Positions 8,625 to 34,215 of a stretch of 64,000 bases of DNA are shown here, in pieces. This DNA is from Calothrix sp. C42_A2020_038. Lineage in GTDB: Bacteria > Cyanobacteriota > Cyanobacteriia > Cyanobacteriales > Nostocaceae. Position numbers and translations under genes: made by a program. Below the pieces are notes generated by a model, which was given only the letters and a program-made list of their open reading frames with translations, was not told the origin of the DNA and did not search any database. Numbering within the stretch: position 1 is the stretch's first letter; each line of letters begins with the position of its first letter. The stretch lies in the NCBI GenBank assembly GCA_015272395.1, contig JACYLQ010000022.1, positions 186,001 through 250,000 on the forward strand, read 5' to 3'.

Positions 8625-11600
8625 ATGTTATCCCAGGAAGAATTGAGTCATATAATTGCCAAAGTCTTAGGCAAAAATGTTGGATTAAAAGAACTGCAAA
8701 GTTGTACTAAAGCTGCCAAAGTGCTTGATTTGCCGTTAGCGCAGCAATTTTGGCAATTAAGAGAAGCCAACGCAAGTGGTATTTATATAGTTATTGCAGG
8801 TAAAGTTAGGCTTTTAGATGATTCAGAGAATTTAATTACTACGTTATCGGTAGGGGCATCATTTGGAGAAGCCACTCTTTTTGATGAGGAGGAGTTTTGT
8901 TCATACGCAGCAAGAGCATCTCACAATTTGAGGGTATGCTACCTCAGTTTAGAGACTTTGCAGCCTTTAATGAATAATTATGCGGAGATTCGCGATCAGC
9001 TTCATCGACGGGCAGAAATCTGGGACTTAATACTTTTATGTCGTCAAAACTCGCAATTTCCACATCCGTCACTTGTTACAGGAATGCTTGAAGCATTATC
9101 GCTCTTTGAGCGACACAATTTCACAACAGCAGAGAAAAATCTGACTTTCAAAGATTGCAATATGCTGTTGTTGCGGTTTGGGAAGATGCAGCATACTGAC
9201 GGAACTTTATCAACACCAGGCAAAATTTGCACCAATCCAAAACAGGGTAGTTGGAATGTGCAGCAACCAACAGTTGTATATGTTCTTAGCCAAACGCATT
9301 ATCAGGCAGCACTACAACATTGTTATGAATTAGCGAAATTCGGTGCATCTGGCGAGCAGTCTGTTTTATCTCAAGAAGTAACTCCACGTAAGAGAAGGTC
9401 AGCAGCAGAAAGTTTTAGAGAAAGTATTAGGGAAAACATTACCTCGCCCAATCAGAAGGTGATCCCCTTTCCCACGCGCGCTAAGGAACCACAGCAACAA
9501 CCATCAAAATCACTTCCTTATTTCCCCAGTCCCAAAGTCGTAATTGGGCGTTGGTGGGGAAGACTGACGCGGCAATATCCCTTTTATGCCCAACAAAGTG
9601 CTTCAGATTGCGGCGCCGCTTGTTTGGTGATGATTGGTAACTATTGGGGTAAACGCTTTAGCGTGAATCGATTGCGAGATATGACCAACGTGAGTCGCAG
9701 TGGCGCCTCGTTGCGAGCGGTAGCTGCGGCAGCCGAAAATCTTGGTTTTGCCTCGCGTCCAGTTAAAGCGACTCTTGATAAATTTGCAGAACAACCATTA
9801 CCAGCAATTGCTCACTGGGAAGGCATACATTTTATTGTTGTTTATGAAATTACCAACAAGCATGTAATTGTTTGCGACCCAGCCCTTGGACAAAGGACTC
9901 TGACTCGTCAAGAATTTGTAGCAGGTTGGACTGGATATGCCTTGTTGCTGCAACCAACAATTGCACTCAAGAATGTAAAGGAAGAGAGTGTCGGTTTTTG
10001 GAAGTTTTTTGAGTTAATTAAACCTCACTACAAAGTACTTGCGGAAATTTTTGTTGCTTCAGTACTGATGCAAATATTCGGACTGGTAACACCTGTATTT
10101 ACCCAATTATTACTAGACCGAGTACTGGTGCAACGTAGTGTTGCTACCTTAAATGCTGTTGGTTTAGGGATGATTGTTTTTGGACTGTTCCGGGTTGCCA
10201 TGAATGGAGTCAGGTCATATTTGCTAGACCATACAGCTAACCGCGTCAGTCTTGCTCTAGTAGTCGGTTTTATTAAACATACCTTCCGCTTACCTCTTTC
10301 CTACTTTGAGTCACGTTATGTCGGTGATATAGTCTCGCGTATCCAAGAAAACCAAAAAATTCAACGCTTCCTGACTGGTCAAACATTGTCAATTATTTTA
10401 GATATGTTGACATTGGTGATTTATCTAGCGTTGATGCTTTCATATAGTTGGCGCATGACTTTGTTTACAATGCTGACAGTTCCACCATTTTTTATTTTGG
10501 CACTGGCTAGCACTAGTATTTTGCGCCGCATCTCTAGAGAAGTTTTCAATGCTGGCGCCGAAGAGAACAGCTATCTCATCCAATCTTTGACCGGAGTTCG
10601 CACAGTCCGTTCTCTAGCAATTGAACAGACTGTGCGTTGGCATTGGGAAGAATTACTAAATAATTTGATTAAAAAAGCCTTTAACGCTCAGGTAATCGGG
10701 AATCGTCTTTCTATCATTAGTGGTGTCATCGAGACCTTTACAAGTACTGCAATGATGTGGTATGGAGCTTCGCAAGTTATTAGTGGTGAACTCACAATTG
10801 GACAATTAGTTGCTTTCAATATGTTGATAGGCAATGTCCTCAGTCCTTTCCAACGACTTTCACTGTTGTGGAATGAACTGCAAGAAATTGTGATCTCCAC
10901 CGAACGTATTAATGATGTCTTGGAGGCAGAACCAGAAGAAGATTTACATAATAAACCTCGTAAAACTCTGGGTGAACTTAAAGGTAGAATTCGTTTTCAA
11001 AACGTTACGTTCCGCTATCATCCAGAAAGCCAGACTAACATTCTAGAAAATATCAATATTGAAATCAAACCAGAGCAAATGGTTGCGTTAGTCGGACGCA
11101 GTGGTTCTGGAAAAACAACGTTTAGTAAATTAATTCTAGGTTTATACCCTCCGACAGATGGCAAAGTCTTAATTGACGGTCACGATATCACTAGTGTCTC
11201 TTTGCGTTCATTACGCTCTCAAGTTGGTGTTGTCGATCAAGATACGTTTTTATTTGGTGGTACCATTCGCGAAAATATTTCCATCGCCCATCCAAATGCT
11301 TCTTTTGAAGAAATTGTTAAAGCCGCACAATTAGCAGGAGCAGATGATTTTATTCAGCAACTGCCACTAGGTTATGAAACCCAAATTGGAGAAGGTGGTG
11401 GAATGCTTTCTGGAGGTCAACGCCAACGCATTGCAATTGCCCGTGCTTTGATGGGAAATCCCCGTTTATTGCTTTTTGATGAAGCAACCAGCCACTTAGA
11501 TACAGAATCTGAGCGTATTATTCAAAACAACTTAAAAACGATTCTGAAAGGACGCACAAGCGTTATTATTGCCCATCGTCTCTCTACTGTACGTAACGCT

Positions 11601-11720
11601 GATCTAATCTTAGTTTTAGATCGAGGTGTATTAGTGGAAAGTGGTACTCATGATGAGTTAATTGCCAAACAAGGTCATTATTACTACTTAAATCAACAAC
11701 AACTCGCTCAAGCTGGTTAA
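8625..11720 (+). CDS. Peptidase-containing ABC exporter (PCAT) with N-terminal cNMP-binding-like domain
   Basis: I use the ATG at 8,625 (1,031 residues), 7 bases after AGAGG, over a TTG at 8,610. Order of domains: cyclic-nucleotide-binding-like domain (about 30-150); variable linker; C39 cysteine peptidase with Cys329 (SDCGAACL), His402 (GIHFIVVY) and Asp418 (CDPALG) all present; six-helix ABC membrane domain (about 460-750); nucleotide-binding domain with Walker A GRSGSGKTTF (about 824), signature LSGGQRQR (about 927), Walker B LLLFDEATS and H-loop IIAHRLS. Such exporters cut precursors after a Gly-Gly leader and export them across the inner membrane. It heads an operon with the HlyD adaptor and prolyl isomerase, and double-glycine peptides lie downstream. 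The N-terminal domain suggests gating by a nucleotide or a structural role; ligand unknown. Confidence 0.93.
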   Translation: MLSQEELSHIIAKVLGKNVGLKELQSCTKAAKVLDLPLAQQFWQLREANASGIYIVIAGKVRLLDDSENLITTLSVGASFGEATLFDEEEFCSYAARASHNLRVCYLSLETLQPLMNNYAEIRDQLHRRAEIWDLILLCRQNSQFPHPSLVTGMLEALSLFERHNFTTAEKNLTFKDCNMLLLRFGKMQHTDGTLSTPGKICTNPKQGSWNVQQPTVVYVLSQTHYQAALQHCYELAKFGASGEQSVLSQEVTPRKRRSAAESFRESIRENITSPNQKVIPFPTRAKEPQQQPSKSLPYFPSPKVVIGRWWGRLTRQYPFYAQQSASDCGAACLVMIGNYWGKRFSVNRLRDMTNVSRSGASLRAVAAAAENLGFASRPVKATLDKFAEQPLPAIAHWEGIHFIVVYEITNKHVIVCDPALGQRTLTRQEFVAGWTGYALLLQPTIALKNVKEESVGFWKFFELIKPHYKVLAEIFVASVLMQIFGLVTPVFTQLLLDRVLVQRSVATLNAVGLGMIVFGLFRVAMNGVRSYLLDHTANRVSLALVVGFIKHTFRLPLSYFESRYVGDIVSRIQENQKIQRFLTGQTLSIILDMLTLVIYLALMLSYSWRMTLFTMLTVPPFFILALASTSILRRISREVFNAGAEENSYLIQSLTGVRTVRSLAIEQTVRWHWEELLNNLIKKAFNAQVIGNRLSIISGVIETFTSTAMMWYGASQVISGELTIGQLVAFNMLIGNVLSPFQRLSLLWNELQEIVISTERINDVLEAEPEEDLHNKPRKTLGELKGRIRFQNVTFRYHPESQTNILENINIEIKPEQMVALVGRSGSGKTTFSKLILGLYPPTDGKVLIDGHDITSVSLRSLRSQVGVVDQDTFLFGGTIRENISIAHPNASFEEIVKAAQLAGADDFIQQLPLGYETQIGEGGGMLSGGQRQRIAIARALMGNPRLLLFDEATSHLDTESERIIQNNLKTILKGRTSVIIAHRLSTVRNADLILVLDRGVLVESGTHDELIAKQGHYYYLNQQQLAQAG

Positions 11721-11828
11721 GTACTGAAGAGCTAGTGATAGATTGTGGATTTTGAGTATTGACAAGAGCGTTCTTGTTTGCAGTACTCAATTCCTCATCC
11801 CATATCTGATTGTTTTGGGAATCATAAT

Positions 11829-13373
11829 ATGCCAAATCCATACAACAATTCTGCGCTCGCGAAAGACGAGCATAATGAATGTATAGATGACAATATTAAT
11901 AATCAGGATAATACTGATAAAAACCAAGTAACGGTTGATGATAAAGCAGACTTTCATTACGGTACAGAAGAACTACTTGATGCCTTACCCAAGGTTTGGA
12001 CGCGCGGTATATTGTATGTCTTAATTGGTTTTGCGATTGTTGGTTTACCTTGGGCTACATTATCCAAAATTGATGAAACAGGTACTGCCAGAGGACGTAT
12101 AGAACCCAAAGGCGCCACGCAAAAATTGGATATTGATGCAAGTGGAACCGTCAAAGCTGTCAAAGTGCGCGAAGGGGATAGCATAAAAGCGGGGCAGGTA
12201 ATTTTAGAATTAGATTCTGAAATTCTCCGAACCCAACTAAAAGAGACTGAAGCGAAGCTATCTGGAATTCAAAATCAAAAAGCACAACTTGACATACTCA
12301 AAAACCAACTCAAAATGACGCTAGGGGTTACTGAGCAACAAAACCAGTCTCAAGCCTTAGAAAAAATGTCTCAAGTCAACCAGGTAAAACAAGACCTGGA
12401 TGCCAAACAAAGCATTCATAACTTACAAAAATTAGAAAGAGAAGCATTAGTTAATCAAGCACAGCAATTAGTCAATACTGCTTTAAATGAAAAGAAAGCC
12501 GCAGAAGCTAGATTAGCTATAGACTCCAGACAAGTCCAACGTTTTAGTGAACTAGTCAAAGACGGTGCAGTTTCCCAAACTCAAGTTGACCAACTTAGAA
12601 AGGAAGAACAAGAAAGTCAACGACTTTACCAAAAAGCTTTATCTGACATCAAACAAGCAGAATTACGTTTAGCAGAAGAGCAAAATCGTTATCAGGCAAC
12701 GCTCAATCAGCTTTCTTCTGATATCAAACAAGCTAAACTGCGACTTGATCAGGAGCAAAACAGCTATCAAAGCGTACTCCAATCTGGTAAATTAGCAGTT
12801 TTGAAAACGACTGAGCAACTCAAAGACTTGGAAACACAATCGGGAGCGCTAAGATCACAAATCGCTCAGATTGGAAGCCAAATCACTTCCTTGAAGTTGC
12901 AATTACAACAGCGTGTTGTGCGGGCGCCGATTGATGGAGTCATTTTTGAGCTACCAGTTTCCAAACCTGGAGTAGTAGTGCAGCCAGGGCAAAGGATTGC
13001 TCAAATCGCACCCAAAAATAGTGGTTTCGTACTCAAAGCTGATATTCCGATTCAAGATAGCGGCTTCTTGAAAGTCGGAATGCCAGTCAAAGTCAAGTTT
13101 GATGCCTACCCATTCCAAGAATATGGAATTGTAGAAGGAAAAGTCAATTGGATTTCTCCTGATACCAGAATTACTCCAGCACCCGAAGGAAGAATAGAAA
13201 ACTTTGGCTTAGAAATCACTTTAAACCAACAACATATTCAATACGGAGCGAAACGTATACCATTAACCGCAGGTCAAACAGCAACTGCCGAAGTCATTGT
13301 TCGCCAGCGAAGAGTGATTGACTATATCTTAGACCCGTTCAAAAAACTGCAAAAAGGCGGTTTAGGAAGCTAG
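11829..13373 (+). CDS. HlyD-family periplasmic adaptor (membrane fusion protein)
   Basis: ATG at 11,829 is preferred to a TTG 51 bases upstream, giving 514 residues. A cytosolic acidic N-terminus precedes one transmembrane segment (about 60-78). The split biotinyl-lipoyl domain opens with GRIEPKGATQKLDIDASGTV, then come long coiled coils (about 130-355). The lipoyl half returns with RVVRAPIDGVIFELPV, followed by a beta-barrel. It links the inner-membrane exporter to an outer-membrane TolC-type channel; no TolC gene is seen here. The gene starts 108 bases after the exporter, so both likely share a transcript. Confidence 0.93.
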   Translation: MPNPYNNSALAKDEHNECIDDNINNQDNTDKNQVTVDDKADFHYGTEELLDALPKVWTRGILYVLIGFAIVGLPWATLSKIDETGTARGRIEPKGATQKLDIDASGTVKAVKVREGDSIKAGQVILELDSEILRTQLKETEAKLSGIQNQKAQLDILKNQLKMTLGVTEQQNQSQALEKMSQVNQVKQDLDAKQSIHNLQKLEREALVNQAQQLVNTALNEKKAAEARLAIDSRQVQRFSELVKDGAVSQTQVDQLRKEEQESQRLYQKALSDIKQAELRLAEEQNRYQATLNQLSSDIKQAKLRLDQEQNSYQSVLQSGKLAVLKTTEQLKDLETQSGALRSQIAQIGSQITSLKLQLQQRVVRAPIDGVIFELPVSKPGVVVQPGQRIAQIAPKNSGFVLKADIPIQDSGFLKVGMPVKVKFDAYPFQEYGIVEGKVNWISPDTRITPAPEGRIENFGLEITLNQQHIQYGAKRIPLTAGQTATAEVIVRQRRVIDYILDPFKKLQKGGLGS

Positions 13374-13418: not shown

Positions 13419-14198
13419 ATGTCAAATCTTTTGAACATTTCCAGTTCAGACATTATTGAGAGTATCAGGCTCTCATGTCAAATTCCCGATGTTGTCAAAG
13501 CCATAGCATCTAAAAAAATTATTCTTGAAGCAGCCCAGGAAGCGGGAGTTCATGTAGAAGAGGGAGAAGTACAGCAGGAGGCTGACAAACTACGGTTAGA
13601 AAAAAAACTCGTAAAAGCTAAAGATACTTGGATGTGGCTAGAAAAACACCATCTTTCTACGAAGGATTTTGAAGAACTAACTCATTACAAGGTTCTGAAA
13701 AAAAAGTTAGCGAATCATCTATTCTCGGCTGACTTGGAAAAGTTTTTTTACGAACATCGCCTCGACTATGATGCTGCCGTCACCTACGAAGTCATTTTGG
13801 AAAGCAAGGACTTAGCTTTGGAATTATTTTATGCCTTGGAAGAAGGTGAAATTACTTTCGCTGAAATTGCTCGCCAATTTATCCAGGAACCAGAACTTCG
13901 TCGCGCGGGTGGATATGTTGGACTTAAACACCGTAAAGATTTCCGCCCTGAGATTGCGGCGCCTGTATTTGCAGCTTCGGCGCCGTCTGTTCTCAAACCA
14001 ATCACGACTCCAAAAGGAGTGTATTTAATTTGGGTTGAAGAAATCATCAAATCTCAGTTGGATGAACAGTTACGCGAAAAAATCATTTCTGAATTATTTG
14101 AGCAATGGTTAAAGCAACAAATCGACTGCCTAGAAATTGTCACCAAGCTAGATTATGATCAATTGCAACCTCAAACAGAACAAATAAAGCCAGCTTAG
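13419..14198 (+). CDS. Parvulin-type peptidyl-prolyl isomerase of the secretion operon
   Basis: ATG at 13,419 follows TGGAG with good spacing; the protein has 259 residues. It has a SurA-like helical N-terminus (about 1-115) and a PpiC/rotamase domain (about 120-225). Conserved parvulin blocks are FAEIARQFIQEPELRRAGGY and PVFAASAPSVLKPITTPKGV. There is no signal peptide, so it may act in the cytosol on precursors before export. Parvulin-like proteins beside C39 exporters are a recurring cyanobacterial arrangement; a chaperone or isomerase role for the secreted peptides is inferred. Confidence 0.85.
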   Translation: MSNLLNISSSDIIESIRLSCQIPDVVKAIASKKIILEAAQEAGVHVEEGEVQQEADKLRLEKKLVKAKDTWMWLEKHHLSTKDFEELTHYKVLKKKLANHLFSADLEKFFYEHRLDYDAAVTYEVILESKDLALELFYALEEGEITFAEIARQFIQEPELRRAGGYVGLKHRKDFRPEIAAPVFAASAPSVLKPITTPKGVYLIWVEEIIKSQLDEQLREKIISELFEQWLKQQIDCLEIVTKLDYDQLQPQTEQIKPA

Positions 14199-14528: not shown

Positions 14529-14529
14529 G

Positions 14530-14629: not shown

Positions 14630-14932
14630 ATGATTATTTCTGATTTAAACTACTTGGAAAATACTTCTGAAGAAATCTTCGGTGGTCGTGGTATCAACAT
14701 CAACAGCCGATTCGTGTTGAACAAAGACGTTAATGCTACAGTAAGAGTTAACGAACAGTTCACAAAAGCATTTAACGTTAACACCGCTGGTATTAACGGA
14801 AACGTAGCTGAAGTACTCGGTAGCTCTGATGCTGTTGGCAACAACACCTTCACCAGCATCATCTTCGGAACTCAAACCGAATCAGGTAGCTCTGAGTCCT
14901 TTGTTAACGCTACTTCCGCTACCCGCAACTAA
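14630..14932 (+). CDS. Double-glycine leader precursor peptide (substrate candidate P1)
   Basis: The start is ATG 14,630, preceded by AGGAG at ideal spacing; an in-frame GTG at 14,564 is rejected because it lies in the 5' hairpin. The 100-residue product begins MIISDLNYLENTSEEIFGG, a hydrophobic/acidic leader ending in Gly18-Gly19, the kind cut by C39 exporters. The remaining 81 residues are rich in Asn, Ser, Thr and Val and lack Cys, so no lanthionine or disulfide chemistry is suggested. A GNNTFTS motif recurs as GNSTFTS in the peptide at 30,558. It sits beside the exporter and has its own strong promoter. Confidence 0.82.
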   Translation: MIISDLNYLENTSEEIFGGRGININSRFVLNKDVNATVRVNEQFTKAFNVNTAGINGNVAEVLGSSDAVGNNTFTSIIFGTQTESGSSESFVNATSATRN

Positions 14933-15109: not shown

Positions 15110-15460
15110 ATGGGTGGATTGTATATTGCCGACCTCAGTTTTTGCGAAACTGCTAATGATGAACAGGTTATCGGTGGTTTATCTGTTAGAAATTTGTCTA
15201 GATCGTTAAGCTCTTTAAGAAGAGTTAGCACTCTTGGTGAAGTGTCTGTAATAGCAGAGCCTGTATTAGCGCAACCCGTTTTAGAAAAGATTTCTTCTCA
15301 AGAGAAAGGTGAGTTTCTGGTTGAAGAATTCAAAGATGAAAGCGGTGAAAATTATGCTTATAAGGCGGTAAGCAAGGATGGTAGGAAGCAAATTAGCGGC
15401 TCAGTTGGCAGTATTGGCAATCTAAACTATGCTGTCTCTAGATCTGAGGTTACTATTTAA
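15110..15460 (+). CDS. Leader-type small secreted protein candidate (P2)
   Basis: The 116-residue product has an N-terminus GLYIADLSFCE...QVIGG with Gly22-Gly23, resembling the leader of P1 (xIxDLxYxE) and of the protein at 32,590 (MQILDLSYCE). The mature part is Ser/Val/Glu-rich with no clear domain. AGAGG lies 7 bases before the ATG. It is probably another substrate of the C39 exporter; the downstream function is unknown. Confidence 0.7.
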   Translation: MGGLYIADLSFCETANDEQVIGGLSVRNLSRSLSSLRRVSTLGEVSVIAEPVLAQPVLEKISSQEKGEFLVEEFKDESGENYAYKAVSKDGRKQISGSVGSIGNLNYAVSRSEVTI

Positions 15461-15575: not shown

Positions 15576-15791
15576 ATGCCAAGTTATCAAGTTGTGGTCA
15601 GAAAGATAATATCATCTGATGGCACTGTTGCTGAGGCAAAGAGTGTAGTAACATCTTCTGGCAATGGTAAAAGTGAGATTAGTCAGAGTGTTTCAGTAAG
15701 TACTTCTGGCAGTAGGTCTGTTTCTTCGGTCAAATCAAGCTCTAGTTCTTGTGCTGACAACACTGATATTGAATCAAGTCCCGGCGCCTAG
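15576..15791 (+). CDS. Small serine-rich protein
   Basis: I choose ATG 15,576, seven bases after AAAGGTGA, giving 71 residues (MPSYQVVVRKIISSDGTVAE then Ser-rich). About a third of residues are Ser, including a five-serine run. There is one cysteine and no leader or signal peptide. It sits between a leader peptide and RTX genes and could be a substrate for the downstream O-glycosyltransferases; that is inference only. No family recognised. Confidence 0.55.
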   Translation: MPSYQVVVRKIISSDGTVAEAKSVVTSSGNGKSEISQSVSVSTSGSRSVSSVKSSSSSCADNTDIESSPGA

Positions 15792-16047: not shown

Positions 16048-16851
16048 ATGGCTACGATAGGAGAAATCATAGCAAGAATTAACCAGCGAACAGCAGAAAT
16101 CAGAGCTAGAGTCGGAGACACCAGAAGCGATCAAATTCTAGGAACTGAAGGAAGAGACAGACTATTTGGAACCTTCGGCGATGATGTCATACTTGGATTT
16201 GGTGGCGATGATATTATTTCAGGAGGTTTCGGTGATGATTTCCTGGATGGGGGGGATGGAAGAGACGAAATATCAGGTGGCTTTGGCAATGACTACATAT
16301 TGGGTGGCAATGGTAATGACCGATTGTTTGGCGGAGCTGGCGATGATCTAGTCTTTGGTGGCGCCGGAAATGATTTAATGGATGGAAGTATTGGTGGTGA
16401 TGTCCTCTTCGGGGGTGACGGTAACGATAACATCACTGGAGGTGTAAATGGAGACCCAGATGGGCCTGAAGAGTTCTTTGTAGACTTTTTGGTCGGGGGT
16501 AACGGCAGTGACACCTTAAATGGATTTGGCGGTGGTACAGGAACGTTTGAAAGAGATATTTTAATTGGTGGGGGTGAAGTTGACGAGAATGGATTTATTG
16601 TAGATGAGAGCGGCGATGGGGTAAGAGACATCTTTGTGCTTGGAAATAATAGAGGGCCTTTTTACGCTGTAGCTGGTGATGATGATTACGCTTTAATTTT
16701 GGACTTTGAAATTGGTATTGATCAGCTTCAGTTAAGCCCAGCTGTAAATCATGTGTTTACACCTGATCAAGGTGATACGTTAATTTACGCTAACGTTGCT
16801 ACTGGTCCCGATTTGATTGGAGTTTTAGTAGGAGTTTCTTTTAACGGCTAA
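16048..16851 (+). CDS. RTX-type calcium-binding protein, 267 aa
   Basis: From about residue 32 to 135 it consists of GGxGxDxxx nonapeptides (for example GGFGDDFLDGGDGRDEISGG), which form a calcium-binding parallel beta-roll. Such proteins are normally secreted by type I systems. The C-terminal part (about 140-267) resembles the end of other cyanobacterial RTX proteins (LILDFEIGIDQLQL). No enzymatic domain and no N-terminal signal. CGGAGA precedes the ATG. Export by the neighbouring ABC/HlyD pair or by another type I system is possible. Confidence 0.9.
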   Translation: MATIGEIIARINQRTAEIRARVGDTRSDQILGTEGRDRLFGTFGDDVILGFGGDDIISGGFGDDFLDGGDGRDEISGGFGNDYILGGNGNDRLFGGAGDDLVFGGAGNDLMDGSIGGDVLFGGDGNDNITGGVNGDPDGPEEFFVDFLVGGNGSDTLNGFGGGTGTFERDILIGGGEVDENGFIVDESGDGVRDIFVLGNNRGPFYAVAGDDDYALILDFEIGIDQLQLSPAVNHVFTPDQGDTLIYANVATGPDLIGVLVGVSFNG

Positions 16852-24316: not shown

Positions 24317-26185
24317 ATGAAAACCATTGCCGAAGCACCTCTAGTTGAACAGCATCAAGCCAATGACTTAGAACAGGCTGACTCGGAAGCTTTATATCGA
24401 TTAGGCTTACTCTCCCAACAAAATGGTCAACTTCAGGAAGCTGAAAAATATTTGACTGCGGCTATCCAGGCGCAGCCTGATATGGTCAAGGCTTGGTTCA
24501 GTTTAGGCAATTTGCGTTTCTCGATTGGTCAGTTTAAAACAGCAGAGGTCGCTTATCGCCAAGCCTTAGCTCTACAGCCTCATCTAGTCACAATACATAA
24601 TAATCTTGGCTATACCTTAGAAAAACAAGGGCTTGTAAACGAGGCTATTGCTTGTTATCAAACAGCCTTGGAAATTCAACCCAAGTGTATTGAAGCTTCG
24701 ATTAATTTAGGTAACGCACTCCACGCGCAAGCTAAACTTTCTCCAGAGCAGCAAGCTTACTACTCTGACTTGAACGAGCAATTAGGTACTGCAAGGCTCG
24801 AAGCTGGCGATGTCAAAACGGCTATTGCTTATTTCCGGCAAGCAATTGTTCTACAACCAAACTCAGTAAGAGCTACTTACAATTTGGGAGTGGCTTTATC
24901 TAAACAGGATGATCTTGAACAAGCTATCACTTGCTTTGAAAAAGTAATAGAACTTAATCCCAGTTATGGAGAAGCTTACCTCAAATTAGGTCAAATTTAC
25001 TACATACAAAAACAGTTACAAAAAGCGGTTGCTGCTTACCGACAAGGGTTAAGTACGATCAATCCTTGCTATGCCAAAGCTGTGGAAGCTGATTTTGAGG
25101 CTGATATTGCAGAGGAGGCGCCAGTTACACCCCCAATTACAAAAGGGGAAGTTATTGTTGGCCAAAGTAGTTTCCCAGCAATTCCGACCTTACCCAACAC
25201 AGGTAAGCGACCTTTTTGGACTGTGATTTTACCAGTATATCAACGCACTGAATATATTCTCGACTGTCTTGCAGGTGTACTCGCACAATGGCCAGGTGAA
25301 GACGAGATGGAAATTCTAGTCTTGGATAATGCTAGTACACATCCACTATTTGATTTAGTGAATTCTATAGGCAAAGGAATAATTAAATACTACAGGCATC
25401 CGGAAAATCTTGGGGTTGTGGGAAATGTAAATATAGGTCTTGCCTTGAGTAGAGGTGAGTGGGTTCATATTCTTCACGATGATGATTGCGTATATCCTGG
25501 TTTTTACTCCCAACTTAAGCAGAGTCTTTTGAACTGTCCCCCATCTGTTGGCGCCGCATTTACTGGTTTTAATTACATTGATGAAAAAGGGGAAAAAGTT
25601 AGTAATGGGGATATAGTTTCAGTTTATGGAGACAATAAAGGTATCCTTCAGGATTGGTTACAAGAAATAGGCGTTTGTGGTCTAATTGCAGTACCAGCAG
25701 TAGTTGTTAAAAGAACAACTCACGAATATTTAGGGGGATATTGCCCTGAAATACAAGGAATTGACGAATGGGAAATGTATAAACGCATTGCTGTTTTCTA
25801 TGATTGTTGGTACGAACCAGAAATTTTAGCGGGTTTCCGCGTCCATCCTCACAGAGAAACATCTAATAATTGGCTTTCTGGTAGTTTACCTAAAGCTATT
25901 CGCCGCGCTATCGAAATAACAGAGACTTATCTTCCTAGCAAGTGGAATGCAGAAATTACAGCAAAATCTCGCAGACACAACTTTAATTACTGTATGCAAC
26001 ACGCAATAATTCCCCTAAAGGCAGGTAATCTAGCTGCGACATTTCGTATTCTTCAAGAAGCACTTAAAATAGACCATTCCTCGGAAGCAGTCGTTAAATT
26101 ATTTGAATGGTTAAATCAAAATGAAGCAGTTCATCTGCGAGAACAAATCATTTCTAAACTTATATTGAGTTGTTTTTTATACTAG
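24317..26185 (+). CDS. TPR-GT2 glycosyltransferase, 622 aa
   Basis: TPR repeats occupy about residues 20-275, followed by a linker with VTPPITKGEVIVGQSSFPAI, the same junction as in the preceding protein. The GT2 domain starts at about 297 (FWTVILPVYQRTEYILDCL) and has the DDD motif in HILHDDDCVYPGF near 387. A helical tail of about 100 residues is shared with its two neighbours. It looks like the C-terminal third of the giant protein as a separate gene. It lies 42 bases downstream, so one transcript is likely. Acceptor and donor are not known. Confidence 0.85.
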   Translation: MKTIAEAPLVEQHQANDLEQADSEALYRLGLLSQQNGQLQEAEKYLTAAIQAQPDMVKAWFSLGNLRFSIGQFKTAEVAYRQALALQPHLVTIHNNLGYTLEKQGLVNEAIACYQTALEIQPKCIEASINLGNALHAQAKLSPEQQAYYSDLNEQLGTARLEAGDVKTAIAYFRQAIVLQPNSVRATYNLGVALSKQDDLEQAITCFEKVIELNPSYGEAYLKLGQIYYIQKQLQKAVAAYRQGLSTINPCYAKAVEADFEADIAEEAPVTPPITKGEVIVGQSSFPAIPTLPNTGKRPFWTVILPVYQRTEYILDCLAGVLAQWPGEDEMEILVLDNASTHPLFDLVNSIGKGIIKYYRHPENLGVVGNVNIGLALSRGEWVHILHDDDCVYPGFYSQLKQSLLNCPPSVGAAFTGFNYIDEKGEKVSNGDIVSVYGDNKGILQDWLQEIGVCGLIAVPAVVVKRTTHEYLGGYCPEIQGIDEWEMYKRIAVFYDCWYEPEILAGFRVHPHRETSNNWLSGSLPKAIRRAIEITETYLPSKWNAEITAKSRRHNFNYCMQHAIIPLKAGNLAATFRILQEALKIDHSSEAVVKLFEWLNQNEAVHLREQIISKLILSCFLY

Positions 26186-26384: not shown

Positions 26385-27716
26385 ATGAAGACAAAAAATA
26401 TTTTACAAACTGATGTTCAATCCTTCATCCCAGCTACGATAGAAAATCAAAATTCGCAGCAATTTGATGAGGTTGAAACAATATATGGAAAATCGCATCA
26501 ACCTGAGCGATACTTTGAATTAGGTAAAATTTATCATCAACAAAACCAGTTTGAGAAGGCAGGGGCTGCTTACCAACAGTGGCTCAAGTTGATTAATCCT
26601 CGTTACAAACAAGCAGTGGAAGCAGCGCACGAGGTGGAAATGGCTCAGGAAGTAACACCACTCATTCCTGAAACAGAAGTTACTGTTGGAGATTATCAGT
26701 TTCCGGCAATTCCTCCTGTTGCTGATAGTGAGACACGACCTTTCTGGAGTGTAGTGATAACTGTATATAATCGCACCGAATATCTATTTGAATGCCTAAA
26801 CAGCGTACTAGCCCAATGGCCAGGGGAGGAGATGGAAATTCTGGTCATGGATAATGCTAGTGATACACCCATATTTGAAATTGTCAACAGTATTGGAAAA
26901 GGTGTAGTGCGCTACTACCGCAATCCAGAAAATGTGAGTCCGGTTAGGAATATGAACGCAGGTATTGCTCTGAGTCGTGGTCACTGGATTCATGTACTCC
27001 ACGATGATGATAGCGTTTTACCTGGTTTTTATGCCCAACTTCAACAAAGTTTAGAAGGTTGCACAAATTCTGTAGGGGCAGCTTTTACAAGTTTTGAGTA
27101 TATCAATGAGAAAGGGGAAGTCCTTTCTGAGCAAAGATGCGGGTATGATGATGGGCAGAAGGGTATCGCGACCGATTGGCTATCAAAGATAGGGGTAATG
27201 TGTATAGTCATGTTATCTGCCGTAGTCATTCGCCGAACAACTTTGGAACGTTTGGGTGCTTATCACCCGCAGCTGCCAGAAATTGCTGACTGGGAAATGG
27301 ATAAGCGTATTGCTGCTCATTATGATTGGTGGTACGAGGGGACAACATTAGCTCGTTACCGACTACATACCCAAAGATTATCAAATGAATATTGGTCTTC
27401 TTGGAGACAAGTAGCTGCTTTTCGCCGCGCGATTGAAATGTCCGAAAGCTATTTGCCGACTCAGCATCGTACAGAAATTACAGCCAAAGCTAGTCTTCAC
27501 TACTTTAATACTTGTTTAGTAAGGTTAAGTAAAATCCTCAAAACTGAGGATATTAGTACTGCTTTCCGTTTACTCCAAGAAATTCTTACGCTTGACCGTT
27601 CTCCACAAGCGGCGATGAATTTATTCGTCTGGTTAACTTATAAGGAAGCGGCGCCATTGCGAGAAGAAATTGTTTCTCGGTTTCTATCAATACCCGTAGA
27701 AGAAATAGTTGCTTAA
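26385..27716 (+). CDS. GT2 glycosyltransferase with short TPR-like N-terminus, 443 aa
   Basis: The N-terminal 90 residues hold one or two TPR-like helices (ERYFELGKIYHQQNQFEKAG). The junction VTPLIPETEVTVGDYQFPAI matches the two preceding proteins. The GT2 domain starts at about 118 (FWSVVITVYNRTEYLFECL) with HVLHDDDSVLPGF near 205. The tail matches its neighbours. It is the third paralogue of one architecture in a row and appears N-terminally reduced compared with the others. Confidence 0.85.
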   Translation: MKTKNILQTDVQSFIPATIENQNSQQFDEVETIYGKSHQPERYFELGKIYHQQNQFEKAGAAYQQWLKLINPRYKQAVEAAHEVEMAQEVTPLIPETEVTVGDYQFPAIPPVADSETRPFWSVVITVYNRTEYLFECLNSVLAQWPGEEMEILVMDNASDTPIFEIVNSIGKGVVRYYRNPENVSPVRNMNAGIALSRGHWIHVLHDDDSVLPGFYAQLQQSLEGCTNSVGAAFTSFEYINEKGEVLSEQRCGYDDGQKGIATDWLSKIGVMCIVMLSAVVIRRTTLERLGAYHPQLPEIADWEMDKRIAAHYDWWYEGTTLARYRLHTQRLSNEYWSSWRQVAAFRRAIEMSESYLPTQHRTEITAKASLHYFNTCLVRLSKILKTEDISTAFRLLQEILTLDRSPQAAMNLFVWLTYKEAAPLREEIVSRFLSIPVEEIVA

Positions 27717-27728: not shown

Positions 27729-28988
27729 ATGGAACAGTATCAAGAACAGACAAAAGCACATGGTAATAAATGTCGATTTTGTGGTACAGAGTTACGTCAT
27801 ACATTTGTGGATCTAGGAATGTCTCCTCCGTGCGAAAGCTATCGCCAAGCAACACAGTTTAACGAAATGGAGGCTTTTTATCCACTACATGTTTACGTTT
27901 GCGAAAAATGTTTTTTAGTCCAGCTTCAAGAATATATTAGCCCCGAAAATATTTTCAGCGACTACGCCTATTTTTCTTCTTACTCAGATACTTGGTTACA
28001 ACATGCCAAAAACTATGTTGATATGGCAGTGAAACGTTTTCATTTAAACGACCAGAGTCAGGTTGTAGAAATTGCTAGTAATGATGGTTACTTACTCCAA
28101 TACTTTGTGAAAAAAGGTATACTAACGTTAGGAATAGAGCCAGCTGCTAATATTGCTAAAGAGGCAATCAAAAAAGGTATTCCAACGGTTGTGAAGTTCT
28201 TTGGAGAGCAAACAGCCAGGGAAATAGTTGATAAAGGACTACGAGCTAATTTATTGATTGGTAATAATGTTCTTGCTCATACTCCTTATTTGAATGATTT
28301 TGTCAAAGGAATGAAAATTCTCTTGAAACCGCAGGGAACCATTACGATGGAATTTCCCCATTTAATGCGGTTAATGGCAGAAAATCAGTTTGACACTATC
28401 TATCACGAACACTTTTCATATTTTTCTTTCATTACTGTTGAAAAAGTCTTTAAGGCACAGGGTTTAACTATTTTTGATGTCGAGGAATTACCTACTCATG
28501 GTGGTTCTTTGAGAATTTACGCGCGTCATACAGAAAACTCTTCCCAACCTATTACTGAGCAGGTATTACAACTTCGAGCTAGAGAAGAAGCAGCTGGTTT
28601 TACAGAATTAAAACACTATTTTTCCTTTGGTGAACAAGTCAAAGAAACAAAACGCAAATTACTCGATTTCTTAATTACAGCTAAACGAGAAGGAAAATCG
28701 ATTGTTGGGTACGGCGCCCCTGGTAAAGGTAATACTCTTTTAAACTACTGTGGGATTCGTACTGACTTTATTGATTATACAGTAGACCGTAGTCCTTATA
28801 AACAAGGTCTATTTTTACCAGGTACTCATATTCCCATTTTTAACCCCGATAAAATTCAAGAAACTAAACCTGATTATGTTGTGATTTTGCCTTGGAATCT
28901 CAAGGAAGAAATTATGGTACAAATGGCTCAAATTCGAGACTGGGGTGGTAAATTTGTTGTTCCAATTCCGGAAGTAACAATATATTAA
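27729..28988 (+). CDS. Zinc-binding class I SAM methyltransferase, sugar C-methyltransferase type
   Basis: The 419-residue protein has an N-terminal zinc-binding block (CRFCGTELRHTFVDLG and CEKCF, about residues 13-65), a SAM-binding Rossmann domain (VEIASNDGYLLQYF near 115) and a C-terminal block VGYGAPGKGNTLLNY near 330. This three-part layout is that of NDP-hexose C-methyltransferases (TylCIII/NovU type). It starts 12 bases after the GT2 gene and precedes a nucleotidyl-sugar synthesis gene, so a deoxysugar or branched-sugar role is inferred. Confidence 0.85.
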   Translation: MEQYQEQTKAHGNKCRFCGTELRHTFVDLGMSPPCESYRQATQFNEMEAFYPLHVYVCEKCFLVQLQEYISPENIFSDYAYFSSYSDTWLQHAKNYVDMAVKRFHLNDQSQVVEIASNDGYLLQYFVKKGILTLGIEPAANIAKEAIKKGIPTVVKFFGEQTAREIVDKGLRANLLIGNNVLAHTPYLNDFVKGMKILLKPQGTITMEFPHLMRLMAENQFDTIYHEHFSYFSFITVEKVFKAQGLTIFDVEELPTHGGSLRIYARHTENSSQPITEQVLQLRAREEAAGFTELKHYFSFGEQVKETKRKLLDFLITAKREGKSIVGYGAPGKGNTLLNYCGIRTDFIDYTVDRSPYKQGLFLPGTHIPIFNPDKIQETKPDYVVILPWNLKEEIMVQMAQIRDWGGKFVVPIPEVTIY

Positions 28989-29063: not shown

Positions 29064-29861
29064 ATGAAAGTAGTACTGTTTTGCGGTGGTTTAGGAACCA
29101 GAATGCGAGACTATTCCGAAAGTATTCCTAAACCGATGGTGAATATAGGTTATAGACCGATATTGTGGCATGTAATGAAGTATTATGCCCATTATGGACA
29201 CAAAGATTTTATTTTGTGTTTAGGATACAAGGCGGATATGATTAAGAGCTATTTTTTGAATTACAACGAATGGCTCTCGAATAACTTTACTATTTCCAAT
29301 GGTGGTAATATTCAATTATTCAATCGCGATATTCAAGATTGGAGTATCACTTTTGTAGATACTGGCTTAACTGCTAATATTGGTCAGCGTTTCAAGGCAA
29401 TTGAACCGTATTTAGAAGGAGAGGAGGTATTCTTAGCTAACTACAGCGATGGCTTAACAGATTTGCATTTGCCATCATATATTGAGAATTTTTATGAAAT
29501 TGATAAGATAGCCAGCTTTTTATGCGTTAGACCAAGCCAGAGTTTTCACTTAGTCGATATGAATGAACAAGGTTTAGTCAAGAGTATTAAAAGTGTAAAA
29601 CAACGTGATATTTGGATTAATGGAGGTTATTTCATATTTAAAAAAGATATTTTTAAATATATTAATCAAGGAGAGGAACTTGTCATTAAACCGTTTCAAA
29701 GACTAATTGCCCAAGAACAGCTTTTTGCTTATAAGTACACTGGCTTTTTTGGGGTAATGGATACGTTTAAAGAAAAGCAAATGTTAGATGATATGTATGC
29801 TCAAGGTGAAAGACCTTGGGAGGTGTGGAGAGATAGACAATTAGAGACATCATATGTATGA
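29064..29861 (+). CDS. rfbF: Glucose-1-phosphate cytidylyltransferase-like
   Basis: The 265-residue nucleotidyltransferase has the sugar-nucleotide signature FCGGLGTRMRDYSESIPKPM at residues 6-25 and NYSDGLTDL (metal site) near 133. Overall match is to RfbF, which makes CDP-glucose from CTP and glucose 1-phosphate. CDP-glucose normally feeds an RfbG 4,6-dehydratase, which is absent here. It overlaps the next gene by 4 bases (ATGA), indicating translational coupling. Confidence 0.87.
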   Translation: MKVVLFCGGLGTRMRDYSESIPKPMVNIGYRPILWHVMKYYAHYGHKDFILCLGYKADMIKSYFLNYNEWLSNNFTISNGGNIQLFNRDIQDWSITFVDTGLTANIGQRFKAIEPYLEGEEVFLANYSDGLTDLHLPSYIENFYEIDKIASFLCVRPSQSFHLVDMNEQGLVKSIKSVKQRDIWINGGYFIFKKDIFKYINQGEELVIKPFQRLIAQEQLFAYKYTGFFGVMDTFKEKQMLDDMYAQGERPWEVWRDRQLETSYV

Positions 29862-30511
29862 TAAAATTAAGCTTAGACAAAACAGATAAATCTGAATATA
29901 AAATCCTTTGCCTCGGCGCCCATTGTGATGATATTGAAATTGGCTGTGGTGGTACATTATTACATCTAATTGAGAATTACAAAAAATTAGTCATCTACTG
30001 GGTAGTTTTTGCTTCTAATGAGCAAAGAGCTTCAGAAGCAACAACAAGTACAAATGTCTTCTTAAAAGAAGTACCAGAAAAAAAAGTTATCATTAAAAAC
30101 TTTCGAGATGGTTTTTTACCATTCCACGGAATAGAGGTAAAAGAATGTTTTGAGCAATTAAAGCAAGAATTTGCGCCAGATATAATTTTTACTCACTACC
30201 GAGACGACCGTCACCAAGACCATCGCTTAATTTCTGATTTAACCTGGAATACTTTTAGAGACCATTTCATTCTGGAATACGAAATACTAAAGTATGACGG
30301 AGATTTGGGAATTCCTAATTTTTTTGTTCATCTAGATGAAGCGCTATGTCGCCGTAAAATACAGTACATCTTAGATGCTTTTCAAACACAAAACAATAAA
30401 CAATGGTTTACAGAAGAAACTTTTCGCTCAATCATGAGAATTCGTGGTATTGAGTCGAATGCACCAAGTAAATATGCGGAAGCATTTTACTGTCGCAAAA
30501 TAGTTTTCTAG
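29858..30511 (+). CDS. PIG-L (LmbE-like) deacetylase
   Basis: The 217-residue protein has the metal and catalytic motif AHCDDIEIGCGGT near residue 21 and the downstream HYRDDRHQDHR with histidine ligands. PIG-L enzymes deacetylate N-acetylglucosaminyl groups on sugars or lipids. Start overlaps the rfbF stop by 4 bases. It probably acts on a sugar added or made by the neighbouring enzymes; the precise substrate is not known. Confidence 0.88.
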   Translation: MIKLSLDKTDKSEYKILCLGAHCDDIEIGCGGTLLHLIENYKKLVIYWVVFASNEQRASEATTSTNVFLKEVPEKKVIIKNFRDGFLPFHGIEVKECFEQLKQEFAPDIIFTHYRDDRHQDHRLISDLTWNTFRDHFILEYEILKYDGDLGIPNFFVHLDEALCRRKIQYILDAFQTQNNKQWFTEETFRSIMRIRGIESNAPSKYAEAFYCRKIVF

Positions 30512-30557: not shown

Positions 30558-30812
30558 ATGATAATTTCTGATCTTGATTACTTATACTCTATTCATGAAG
30601 CAGATGCAATCGAATTAAGCGGTGGCAATGCTTATGCCGATTCGGAAGCTTTAGCAGTTGCTATTGGTAATTCAACCTTCACAAGCACCGATGCTGTAAC
30701 TTTAGCCATCAGTAATGGCCGCTTTGCCTTAGCTCTTAGTTCTACCCGCTCAAGAGCAAAATCATCTGGTGGTGGTGCCTTTGCTTATGCTTCTTCTTCC
30801 GCTTCTGTTTAA
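30558..30812 (+). CDS. Double-glycine leader peptide, Ala/Ser-rich (P3)
   Basis: The 84-residue product begins MIISDLDYLYSI and has Gly22-Gly23, closely matching the P1 leader at 14,630. The core is very rich in Ala and Ser, with GNSTFTS (compare GNNTFTS in P1) and a C-terminus ending SSSASV. There is no Cys. Ribosome binding site is weak. It is probably exported by the C39 ABC transporter, and the Ser/Thr density fits an O-glycosylated substrate (inference). Confidence 0.75.
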   Translation: MIISDLDYLYSIHEADAIELSGGNAYADSEALAVAIGNSTFTSTDAVTLAISNGRFALALSSTRSRAKSSGGGAFAYASSSASV

Positions 30813-31350: not shown

Positions 31351-31785
31351 ATGGAAGATATTGTAACTACACTTTGCCCTAGCGCTAGACCAGAATCATC
31401 TGATGGTCTTGTGTTTGGTGTAGTAGGTGGAACTGTAACAGCACCTCGTGTAAGTTACCTTAAGCAAAAACTGCCCATTACCGATGAACTGATAGCAAAA
31501 GCTAGTCCTGTTACACCTGCCGAGATTTTTCGGACAGCTGCATCCTGTGCAACATCAAACTGTCAGCATTTTGATGGTAAAGACTGTCGTTTAGCAATGC
31601 AAATTGTCGATAAATTGCCTGCGGTAGTAGAAGAACTACCACCCTGCTCTATTCGCCGAGATTGTCGCTGGTGGCAGCAAGAAGGATATCAGGCTTGTAT
31701 ACGATGTCCACAAATAGTTACAGACCAGTATTCTGCATCCGAAAATTTGCGTCAAGCTGTAGACCCTTCTTTTTATCAGGTTTGA
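31351..31785 (+). CDS. Cys-rich protein of the peptide-maturation cassette, 144 aa
   Basis: No named family is assigned. The N-terminus has LCPSARPESSDGLVFGVVGG and is followed by a region with many cysteines: SCATSNC, KDCRLA, PPCSIRRDCRWW and QACIRCPQI. The regular Cys pairs suggest iron-sulfur or zinc binding. I recall this type of protein next to Nif11-like peptides in other cyanobacteria, which is memory and not shown here. A role as electron carrier or partner for the radical SAM enzyme is a guess. TGGAGG lies 13 bases before the ATG. Confidence 0.7.
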   Translation: MEDIVTTLCPSARPESSDGLVFGVVGGTVTAPRVSYLKQKLPITDELIAKASPVTPAEIFRTAASCATSNCQHFDGKDCRLAMQIVDKLPAVVEELPPCSIRRDCRWWQQEGYQACIRCPQIVTDQYSASENLRQAVDPSFYQV

Positions 31786-31824: not shown

Positions 31825-32268
31825 ATGAGTATGCCAGAAATTTTGGAAAAAGTTAAAGACTTCCTTGTGAAACTTGTTAAAGACGAGGCTTTTCGTGCCA
31901 AATTAATGAGCGAAAAAGTTGAAGAAGCAGAACAATTCTTACAAGAAAGAGGCTATAATTTTTCTAAAGAAGAATTTGAAACTGCTGCAATTAAAATCCT
32001 GGAATTGAAAGAGCTTGGTGAGTTTCATGAACTTACCGAAGCAGAGCTAGTAGGAGCAGTTGGTGGAATAGCCAGCATCGCCCCTGAAGAAAGGTTTGTA
32101 CCGACACACGAAATTCGTCCACCCTCCAAATGGTATCCAAAGCCTTTGCCCAGACCATTACCAAAACCATTTCCTCAACCACAACCACACTACGGCATTA
32201 TAATTACTCCGTTTGACCCACATGTGCAAGCGTTATACGGAGTGATTGTCTCACAAGACAAATTATAA
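31825..32268 (+). CDS. Nif11-type leader precursor with proline-rich core and YG motifs (P5)
   Basis: AAGGAG lies 6 bases before the ATG. Residues 1-75 are an acidic helical Nif11-type leader (KVKDFLVKLVKDEAFRAKLM, then GEFHELTEAELVGAVGG) with Gly80-Gly81. The core is Pro-rich (YPKPLPRPLPKPFPQPQP) and holds HYG at 122-124 and LYG at 137-139, with the tail VSQDKL. Nif11-leader peptides are substrates of lanthionine synthetases or radical SAM maturases. There is no Cys in the core, so lanthionines are excluded, while XYG is the site used by the PlpX-type radical SAM splicease. The product here is not established. Confidence 0.83.
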   Translation: MSMPEILEKVKDFLVKLVKDEAFRAKLMSEKVEEAEQFLQERGYNFSKEEFETAAIKILELKELGEFHELTEAELVGAVGGIASIAPEERFVPTHEIRPPSKWYPKPLPRPLPKPFPQPQPHYGIIITPFDPHVQALYGVIVSQDKL

Positions 32269-32302: not shown

Positions 32303-32386
32303 TGCAACGGATGTAACGGATGATGTTGTGTGTGTTGCACCATTAAGAATTAACCATCCGTTATATCCGTTAATTGTCTGTTGCCA
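32303..32386. mobile_element. Short inverted-repeat element, family B copy 4
   Basis: GCAACGGATGTAACGGATG at the left end is mirrored by CATCCGTTATATCCGTTA and TTGCC at the right end (one mismatch in 17). Only about 85 bases lie in between, so it is a minimal version of the element at 62,400-62,580. Confidence 0.6.
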
Positions 32387-32415
32387 GTGTGTTTCCTTAC
32401 CCCATTTTTGACTCA

Positions 32416-32571
32416 GAGGATGTTTCAAAAGTCTAAAAATATACATGAAACTCCTCTGGTAAACCTCTCCCTGACATGGGTAGAGAATTTGAAAGCAGTA
32501 TTTTCTTGTTCCCCTTCCCGCATCTGGGAAGGGGTTAGGGGTTAGGTTCTTAATACTTTTCCAACATCCTC
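32416..32571 (-). mobile_element. MITE-like element, family A copy 3 (inverted)
   Basis: Ends GAGGATGTTTCAAAAGTC and ACTTTTCCAACATCCTC form clear terminal inverted repeats. The interior CCCCTTCCCGC / GGGAAGGGG arms are in reverse order compared with copies 1 and 2. It is 156 bases long and non-coding, and lies directly before the gene at 32,590. Confidence 0.7.
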
Positions 32572-32589
32572 TAAGTTGAGTCACCAGAT

Positions 32590-32931
32590 ATGCAGATATT
32601 AGATTTATCCTACTGCGAAAATATTTCAGAGCGAGAGCTAGTTTTAGGCTCTGCTGGAGTAAGTGTTGAAGGTCAGGCCGTAGGCACAATCGAAGCTTAT
32701 GTATTTACAGATACTTTTGCCAGGCGTCTGCGAAGTGGTGGCGCCATTGCAATTGGTCGAGGAGTGGCTTTTGCTAGTGGTGGTAATCCGACGGCTAGTA
32801 TTGAAGTTGCTGGTGAAGGTGATCTTGTAATTGAAGTAAACGGTTCTAGATTCCTCATGTCTAAAAAAGCAGCTATTGCATACGGTATTGTAGTCGCTAT
32901 AGATTTGCCCGACAAAAAGTCTAAGAATTAG
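32590..32931 (+). CDS. Leader-type small protein (P6)
   Basis: The 113-residue product begins MQILDLSYCENISERELVLG, matching the (I)xDLxYxE leader of P1-P3, but has GSAG where Gly-Gly is expected, so the cut site is unclear. The core is rich in Gly, Ala and Val, and ends in a charged Lys-rich tail. It lies 27 bases before the radical SAM gene, so the two are probably co-transcribed. It could be a substrate or a truncated precursor; no family is recognised. Confidence 0.6.
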   Translation: MQILDLSYCENISERELVLGSAGVSVEGQAVGTIEAYVFTDTFARRLRSGGAIAIGRGVAFASGGNPTASIEVAGEGDLVIEVNGSRFLMSKKAAIAYGIVVAIDLPDKKSKN

Positions 32932-32958
32932 TCTAAAAACTAAAATTGGGGGTTAGTC

Positions 32959-34215
32959 ATGACATATCACCGCACGAGTTATGCTGTTTGGGAAATTACC
33001 TTAAAGTGCAATCTAGCCTGTAGCCACTGTGGTTCGCGCGCAGGAAATGCACGCTCTAAAGAACTCTCAACAGAAGAAGCGTTAGACCTTGTTAGACAGA
33101 TGGCCTCAGTTGGAATTAAAGAAGTTACCCTCATTGGTGGTGAGGCGTTTCTACGTCCAGACTGGTTAGAAATTGCGGCATCGATTACAAGTGCCGGAAT
33201 GCTATGCGGCATGACTACTGGCGGCTATGGTATATCATTGGACACGGCTGCCAAAATGAAAGAAGCCGGAATTCGTACTGTTTCTGTTTCTATAGATGGT
33301 TTAGAAGAAACCCATGACCGTCTGCGGGGAAGAAAAGGCTCTTGGAAATATGCTTTCAAGACTATGAGCCATCTCAAAGAAGTTGGTATTACCTTTGGTT
33401 GCAATACTCAAATCAATCGTTTGTCGGCGCCGGAGTTTCCCAGTATCTATGAATGTATTCGTGATGCGGGCGCCCGTGCTTGGCAAGTACAGCTAACTGT
33501 ACCAATGGGCAATGCAGCCGATAACGCCCATATCCTTCTCCAACCCTACGAACTATTAGATATTTACCCAATGCTCGCGCGTGTTGCTCGTCGGGCTTAT
33601 GCTGAAGGTGTACAACTTCAAGCTGGAAACAATATCGGTTACTACGGTCCTTACGAGCGACTATTGCGAGGACGGGGAAACGAACATGAATGGTCATTTT
33701 GGCAAGGTTGCGGCGCCGGACTTTCAACTTTAGGCATTGAAGCCGATGGCGCAATCAAAGGTTGTCCTTCGCTCCCTACTACCACCTACACTGGTGGAAA
33801 CATTCGAGAACGTACACTGCACGACATTATTGAAAACACAGCCGAACTGCGAATGAATCTAGGAGCAGGAACACCGGAAGGAACAAAACACCTTTGGGGT
33901 TTTTGCAAAACTTGTGAATATGCCGAATTGTGCCGTGGAGGTTGCAGTTGGACTGCTCATGTTTTCTTTGACCGTAGAGGCAATAATCCTTACTGCCATC
34001 ATCGCGCGCTTGCTCATGCAGAGAAAGGTTTGAGGGAGCGCTTGGTGCCACTTGTGAAAGCTCAAGGATTACCTTTTGACAATGGTCAGTTTAAACTAAT
34101 TGTCGAACCGATAGATACTCCCCTACCAGAAGACCCATTACAATTTAGCTCAGAGCGCATTCATTGGTCTGCTAGTTGGGAACACGAAAGTCAAAAGGAA
34201 AAAGTTAAAAGTTAA
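32959..34215 (+). CDS. Radical SAM/SPASM peptide maturase
   Basis: The 418-residue protein has the radical SAM cluster motif CNLACSHC (Cys17, Cys21, Cys24), the GGEAFLR block near 55, and a SPASM-type C-terminus with cysteines in GCGAGLSTLGIEADGAIKGC (about 252-271) and FCKTCEYAELCRGGC (about 315-330). This matches SPASM enzymes that modify ribosomal peptides; I recall the NCBI name GDL-motif peptide-associated maturase for close relatives. GGGGG lies before the ATG. The likely substrates are P4, P5 or P6 just upstream. Chemistry (thioether, C-C crosslink, epimerisation or splicing) cannot be read from sequence. Confidence 0.9.
   Translation: MTYHRTSYAVWEITLKCNLACSHCGSRAGNARSKELSTEEALDLVRQMASVGIKEVTLIGGEAFLRPDWLEIAASITSAGMLCGMTTGGYGISLDTAAKMKEAGIRTVSVSIDGLEETHDRLRGRKGSWKYAFKTMSHLKEVGITFGCNTQINRLSAPEFPSIYECIRDAGARAWQVQLTVPMGNAADNAHILLQPYELLDIYPMLARVARRAYAEGVQLQAGNNIGYYGPYERLLRGRGNEHEWSFWQGCGAGLSTLGIEADGAIKGCPSLPTTTYTGGNIRERTLHDIIENTAELRMNLGAGTPEGTKHLWGFCKTCEYAELCRGGCSWTAHVFFDRRGNNPYCHHRALAHAEKGLRERLVPLVKAQGLPFDNGQFKLIVEPIDTPLPEDPLQFSSERIHWSASWEHESQKEKVKS

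Follow-up and report, generated by a model that had tools for sequence, protein, structure and literature searches.

What does a cyanobacterial locus produce in which a peptide exporter, a set of glycosyltransferases (GTs) and a radical SAM enzyme stand together on one strand, and do its modifying enzymes act on the same peptide? The question is raised by a 64,000-nucleotide stretch of Calothrix sp. C42_A2020_038 (contig JACYLQ010000022.1, positions 186,001 to 250,000; the window, whose first letter is position 1), in which 8625-34444 is one run of + strand genes falling into three modules: an exporter, a splicease (radical SAM enzyme, Nif11 precursor and small partner) and a glycosyltransferase module. 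The initial annotation had read this run, as far as 34215, as a locus for exported, glycosylated and radical-SAM-modified peptides; sequence and profile searches of the window recovered all the parts it had named, all of them on the + strand. The end point was moved to 34444 because an open reading frame (ORF) of 66 amino acids (aa) ending there has a relative in 76 of the 79 loci of the radical SAM enzyme. With a probability of roughly 0.5, we read the run as a modular peptide-secretion locus, in which the GT kit glycosylates an exported peptide, here called pepA, the splicease edits another precursor, and both probably share the exporter. The genes on which this reading turns are the following.

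8625..11720, + strand: cNMP-C39 peptidase-ABC exporter of the long type (PF00027, PF03412, PF00664, PF00005)
11778..13373, + strand: HlyD adaptor (PF13437, 78 bits)
13419..14198, + strand: PPIC-type prolyl isomerase, SurA-like (PF00639, PF13145)
14630..14932, + strand: pepA, a peptide with a Gly-Gly (GG) leader, MIISDLNYLENTSEEIFGG, and an Asn/Ser/Thr-rich core; proposed glycosylation substrate (from sequence)
18236..24274, + strand: TPR-GT41-TPR-GT41-TPR-GT2 protein, 2012 aa (PF13844, PF00535, TPR models; matches to TtOGT, SPINDLY and OGT)
24317..26185, + strand: TPR-GT2 glycosyltransferase (PF00535; HDDD motif)
26385..27716, + strand: GT2 glycosyltransferase with a short TPR start (PF00535; HDDD motif)
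27729..28988, + strand: sugar C-methyltransferase-like protein (PF08484, PF08421)
29064..29861, + strand: nucleotidylyltransferase, glucose-1-phosphate cytidylyltransferase-like (PF00483)
29858..30511, + strand: PIG-L deacetylase-like protein (PF02585)

The exporter, whose ORF opens at TTG 8610, carries a C39 domain that matches PF03412 with 131.7 bits and shows the set Gln...Cys, His and Asp (QQSASDCGAACL, HWEGIHFIVVYE, CDPALG), which we take to be the catalytic residues; the intact Cys-His-Asp peptidase of the initial annotation is thereby borne out, as are its HlyD adaptor and prolyl isomerase (PF13437, PF00639), the latter scoring 56 bits with TIGR04500, under the cut-off of 180. No Pfam or NCBIfam model matches pepA, and its predicted structure (mean predicted local distance difference test, pLDDT, 57) is of fair confidence for a C-terminal strand pair alone.

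That the grouping of these genes is more than chance follows from the recurrence of their linkage in relatives. In 118 genomes from the family to which the window belongs, its own among them, a close GT41 type (at least 60% identity) occurs in 19, and in all 19 pepA lies within 10 kilobases (kb), on the same strand, of at least one GT41 copy. The isomerase is found within 12 kb of GT41 in 16 of the 19 genomes (G032, G052 and G071 are those without), which is the more independent figure because the pepA query came largely from GT-linked loci. At 43 distant GT41 places no pepA, isomerase or splicease neighbour was found, the isomerase places used being the 150 (95 + 55) listed among the matches. 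The pepA family itself is present in 58 of the 118 genomes and stands beside the isomerase in 55 of those 58. Of 194 genomes sampled across the class, two contained the close GT41 type, both of the window's family, and 23 contained pepA, of which 18 lie outside that family.

The second line of evidence is the composition of the pepA core, measured on the first pepA of each locus and placed on an isomerase tree of 62 loci, 24 of them with GT41 (68 were examined; L182, L194, L204, L211, L213 and L217, none GT-linked, were dropped for want of a first pepA). Lysine makes up 4.9% of the core at GT loci versus 8.0% at loci without GT, K+D+E 13.0% versus 19.9%, and asparagine 11.6% versus 8.2%. Phylogenetic contrasts, with p values uncorrected for the number of measures, give lower K+D+E (p 0.006) and Lys (p 0.03) and higher Asn (p 0.04) at GT loci. 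In comparisons of sister clades, two of which share one sister clade, the GT side has less Lys in 10 of 11, and its frequency of the sequon NxS/T is higher in nine, equal in one and lower in one. Six loci scored as lacking GT come from genomes with a close GT41 elsewhere, and their removal keeps the difference. The isomerase, taken as a control, showed no shift in five measures at p <0.05, and the leader control showed no charge loss, GT loci having the more acidic leaders (p 0.01). As an observation in its own right, the pepA leaders of GT41 loci contain 20.3% Asp+Glu versus 17.5%, often with SEE or NEE before the GG; the acidic leader is perhaps a recognition mark for the GT41 enzyme. N-glycosylation sequons were considered as a specific signal and rejected: linked loci hold 55 against 49.9 in shuffles and unlinked loci 31 against 51.4 (counted by a pattern that yielded a peptide at all but one of 19 linked and all but eight of 40 unlinked loci, with L131 left out beforehand), and the reversed motif behaves alike on contrasts. 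The core shift fits sugars that replace charge, without telling O- from N-glycosylation.

The nature of the large enzyme points the same way. The initial annotation had counted three GT2 proteins and two SPINDLY-like modules; all these domains are present, but both GT41 domains and one GT2 domain share a single 2012-aa protein, in which PF13844 reaches 184 bits across four stretches, accompanied by TPR models. Both GT41 domains find TtOGT as the best match, followed by SPINDLY and OGT (5djs and 7y4i among the matches), while HMW1C-type enzymes score low and are level with XcOGT in one domain; the NGT equivalog model NF049992 gives 57 bits against a cut-off of 1000, which does not place the enzyme in the HMW1C/NGT group. 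In TtOGT, Lys341 (Lys842 of human OGT) is a key residue (PMC4683255). A lysine occupies this catalytic place in both GT41 domains of the window, where the aligned SPINDLY residue is also Lys, and in 34 of 34 spanning GT41 copies from 29 loci, a count of copies and not of independent genomes, since some loci repeat one genome (the place is not covered in L132, the 35th row). The aligned TtOGT chain has Met there and is presumably a mutant construct. A tandem duplication of the TPR-GT41 unit lies within the one gene at 19189-21722, with 300-nucleotide stretches 71 and 83% identical, and is the only direct repeat found. The sugar-modifying genes of the initial annotation stand as a PF08484 C-methyltransferase, a cytidylyltransferase relative (211.8 bits with TIGR02623, under the cut-off of 300.25) and a PIG-L protein. 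From linkage, core composition and enzyme type together we infer that pepA peptides are glycosylated.

Several observations weigh against this reading. The origin of the pepA query has been mentioned, and 39 of the 58 pepA genomes are without a close GT41, so that the enzyme is not needed for pepA; pepA is also remote from two GT41 copies in G044 and from one fragment in G023. On contrasts, no difference in Ser+Thr is seen (p 0.25), and the preference for NxS/T (p 0.08) does not exceed that for its reversed motif (p 0.09). If L176, a locus with a GT41 remnant, is scored as GT, the charge and Asn results become stronger (0.0004 for K+D+E, 0.012 for Lys, 0.002 for Asn), with 0.056 for NxS/T, 0.025 for the reversed motif and 0.38 for Ser+Thr, but this scoring was chosen after the remnant had been seen. 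The exception among the sister clades is the Nostoc punctiforme group, with 8.5% Lys at GT loci versus 2.6%, and L016, L017 and L018 are high in Lys. The loss of charge at GT loci could have other causes, and export and glycosylation are predictions from the genes, with Ser/Thr or Asn as possible target residues.

The remaining features of the run are needed for the splicease and for the alternatives.

15110..15460, + strand: pepB, leader peptide of the DLSFCE...GG type (relatives in exporter loci)
15576..15791, + strand: pepC, short Ser-rich protein without a GG leader (relatives in exporter loci)
16048..16851, + strand: RTX1 (PF00353, five stretches)
16877..18121, + strand: RTX2 (PF00353)
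30558..30812, + strand: pepD, second MIISDL-type GG-leader peptide (sequence; relatives)
31351..31785, + strand: protein of 144 aa containing 8 Cys (no Pfam or NCBIfam match; relatives at 27 of the 79 splicease loci)
31825..32268, + strand, likely start 31831: Nif11-leader spliceotide precursor with HYG and LYG (TIGR03798, 34.4 bits, cut-off 32.3)
32590..32931, + strand: pepE, leader peptide of the DLSYCE type (relatives)
32959..34215, + strand: radical SAM/SPASM splicease, PlpX-like (TIGR04103, 804 bits, cut-off 725)
34244..34444, + strand: 66-aa candidate PlpY-like partner with an LLPRSAW motif (relatives in splicease loci, as counted above)

Several leader-bearing peptides had been noticed initially, and four leaders of the GG or GA type (14630, 15110, 30558 and 32590, by eye) were indeed found, with the Nif11 precursor at 31831. 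Relatives of pepC recur at exporter loci both with and without GT41.

The radical SAM/SPASM enzyme had also been recognized correctly, its score lying above the cut-off of TIGR04103, a family that we take to be identical with IPR026482. Its surroundings were examined in 79 splicease loci, obtained from the best 80 of 218 matching stretches of a genome search. A Nif11 relative is present at 71 of them; YG stands in the core of 101 of 102 Nif11 precursors, where 21.9 would be expected, and among 185 XYG sites 85 have Leu and 55 have Met as X. In the literature, PlpX and its small partner PlpY act on Nif11- or nitrile-hydratase-like precursors, PlpX being listed as IPR026482 (PMC11002830), and PlpXY removes 135.0757 Da at MYG and LYG (PMC10533398). 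Because the TIGR04103 and TIGR03798 scores and the YG enrichment match these traits, the radical SAM module is, judged by its sequence, a spliceotide system of known chemistry. The XYG-bearing Nif11 precursor, rather than the MIISDL-type peptides, is its most likely substrate. Two further candidates were rejected: pepE, whose AYG is not matched at that place in relatives (by eye), and RTX2, whose YG motifs are located within ordinary RTX repeats. The 144-aa protein is possibly a third splicease partner or an unusual precursor. A match to at least one exporter gene (E <=1e-4, some weak) occurs at 53 of the 79 loci, several of which end at contig ends. In Hyella patelloides (L062:6884-9952) at least seven tandem Nif11 precursors, each with a single XYG, lie beside one splicease.

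It remains to be asked whether one peptide could pass through both kits, as the initial annotation implied. In the window, as in seven Nostocales loci (L008, L011, L013, L014, L016, L017 and L018) with exporter, GT41, GT2, splicease and sugar genes, all modules occupy a single strand, and the linkage in relatives on which that annotation had staked its idea is thereby found. Against a single pathway stands the separate fate of the kits. A splicease occurs within 25 kb of GT41 in only five of the 19 genomes (contig ends may hide some), and exporter loci L177 and L179 have a splicease without a GT41 match. Each kit has also decayed alone: L125 (G059) shows exporter, pepA, GT41, GT2 and methyltransferase matches, with the radical SAM gene and small partner as fragments only, and L176 (G070) has kept exporter and peptides, with GT41 reduced to a C-terminal remnant. 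XYG sites with flanks like those of known sites are in the Nif11 precursor, pepA, pepB, pepC and pepD of the window are free of YG, and the AYG of pepE is as isolated as stated. Both kits are present in L121 and in L122 with L135, and the splicease place of G018 adjoins an isomerase (among the matches listed); L007 is the same stretch as L130, some loci are one genome seen twice, and other glycosyltransferases near GT41-less loci were sought in six loci. Because the kits are kept or lost separately in relatives, a joint pathway is very improbable; that the locus makes exported and radical-SAM-modified peptides is likely right.

Two other accounts leave the kits apart and move the target of the glycosyltransferases. 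The GT kit might glycosylate the RTX proteins, pepA being a neighbour that merely shares the exporter. Both proteins, as initially annotated, match PF00353; RTX2 is well conserved (11 aligned sequences, mean column identity 71%; its predicted structure is confident in the RTX part only), and RTX1- or RTX2-like matches lie between exporter and GT41, or just past GT41, in most fetched GT41 regions, which counts against pepA as the target. However, L116, L124 and L126 combine exporter, GT41 and a pepA-type peptide with no + strand RTX match beside them within the fetched stretch, and the composition shift, measured in pepA and the isomerase, was found in the pepA core. This account is considered unlikely; the RTX proteins may be additional cargo or additional targets. 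Alternatively, the glycosyltransferases could make a surface polysaccharide, with no peptide or protein target, and have joined the exporter by chance of cluster assembly. GT2, C-methyltransferase, nucleotidylyltransferase and PIG-L proteins are common in polysaccharide clusters, and GT2 shows a weak similarity to exopolysaccharide (EPS) and hormogonium polysaccharide enzymes. Described TPR-bearing GT41 enzymes, on the other hand, act on proteins (PMC4683255), and the linkage to pepA in every close-GT41 genome speaks against chance, so that a purely polysaccharide role appears improbable.

On the preferred reading of two kits with different precursors and probably one common exporter, events might run as follows. 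The peptides would be synthesized with a GG leader. A first sugar would be attached to the pepA core, at Ser/Thr or Asn, by the TPR-GT41 domains in the cytoplasm; the GT2 domains would lengthen it, and the sugar would be provided or changed by the methyltransferase, the nucleotidylyltransferase and the PIG-L protein. The radical SAM pair would excise tyramine at HYG/LYG of the Nif11 precursor, leaving alpha-keto-beta-amino acid residues, as extrapolated from PlpXY. The C39 domain would then cleave after GG, and the transporter would export the low-charge, sugar-bearing peptide; exported pepA may perhaps be a surface or matrix component. In general form, the idea of a new class of glycosylated secreted peptides, in which OGT/SPINDLY-like enzymes of cyanobacteria act on GG-leader peptides in the cytoplasm ahead of C39 export and the sugars stand in for charge (K, D and E lost and Asn gained in cores accompanied by the enzyme module), is put forward as tentative.

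A promoter and terminator scan of the locus gave nothing better than shuffled sequences. Adjoining the locus on the - strand, 35678-44263 has, among its ORFs, one for a GH3-like protein and two for proteins with Rieske domains, perhaps another small pathway.

To our knowledge, the bacterial targets of eukaryote-like GT41 enzymes are mostly unknown. If the preferred reading is true, such enzymes would be linked to a secreted substrate that is small, defined and open to co-expression and mass measurement; the C39 exporter would be a stable chassis on which peptide-modifying kits are gained and lost; and an exporter for spliceotides would be suggested.

The initial annotation knew of no described pathway with this combination, and the mostly open-access literature searched agrees, though a survey of 939 predicted spliceotide systems, outside that scope, may show related clusters; two of the three modules, exporter and splicease, are of kinds already described. 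The link of a glycosyltransferase module to an exported peptide family seems undescribed. Cyanobacterial bacteriocin clusters with a long-type C39 transporter (groups I, II and VI) were described in 2011 (PMC3140520), and the window resembles them in its CAP_ED/cNMP-C39-ABC protein, HlyD, SurA-like rotamase and several GG-leader precursors. Both traits of the long-type cluster are found here: the cNMP-C39-ABC, HlyD and rotamase genes stand together, and GG-leader precursors lie nearby. The cluster is not assigned to group II: the leader motif given for its HetP proteins is KIxDLxYLEx10GG (PMC3140520), and pepA, with MIISDLNYLE, has seven residues (by eye) between DLNYLE and GG instead of ten. 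The word 'glycosyltransferase' does not occur in the main text of PMC3140520, whereas the window has such enzymes.

As to the secreted product, the EbfG proteins of Synechococcus elongatus are small GG-leader proteins that depend on a peptidase-bearing secretion machinery, occur on the surface and in the matrix, and in part form amyloid (PMC9981879). The likeness is one of description, both being small secreted GG-leader proteins (PMC9981879, PMC4997328), and by this analogy a role outside the cell is suggested for pepA; a splicease or GT41 link was not seen in the accessible descriptions of EbfG. The radical SAM module is like PlpXY in its radical SAM/SPASM enzyme, candidate small partner, Nif11-type leader and XYG with X mostly Leu or Met, and unlike the described PlpXY it sits, as known here from genes, in a locus that also encodes a C39 exporter, glycosyltransferases and RTX proteins. 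The large enzyme, finally, shares TPR, GT41 domain and the conserved catalytic Lys place with TtOGT, OGT and SPINDLY (PMC4683255), and differs from the TtOGT type by uniting two GT41 domains and one GT2 domain in a single protein and by its genomic link to GG-leader peptides.

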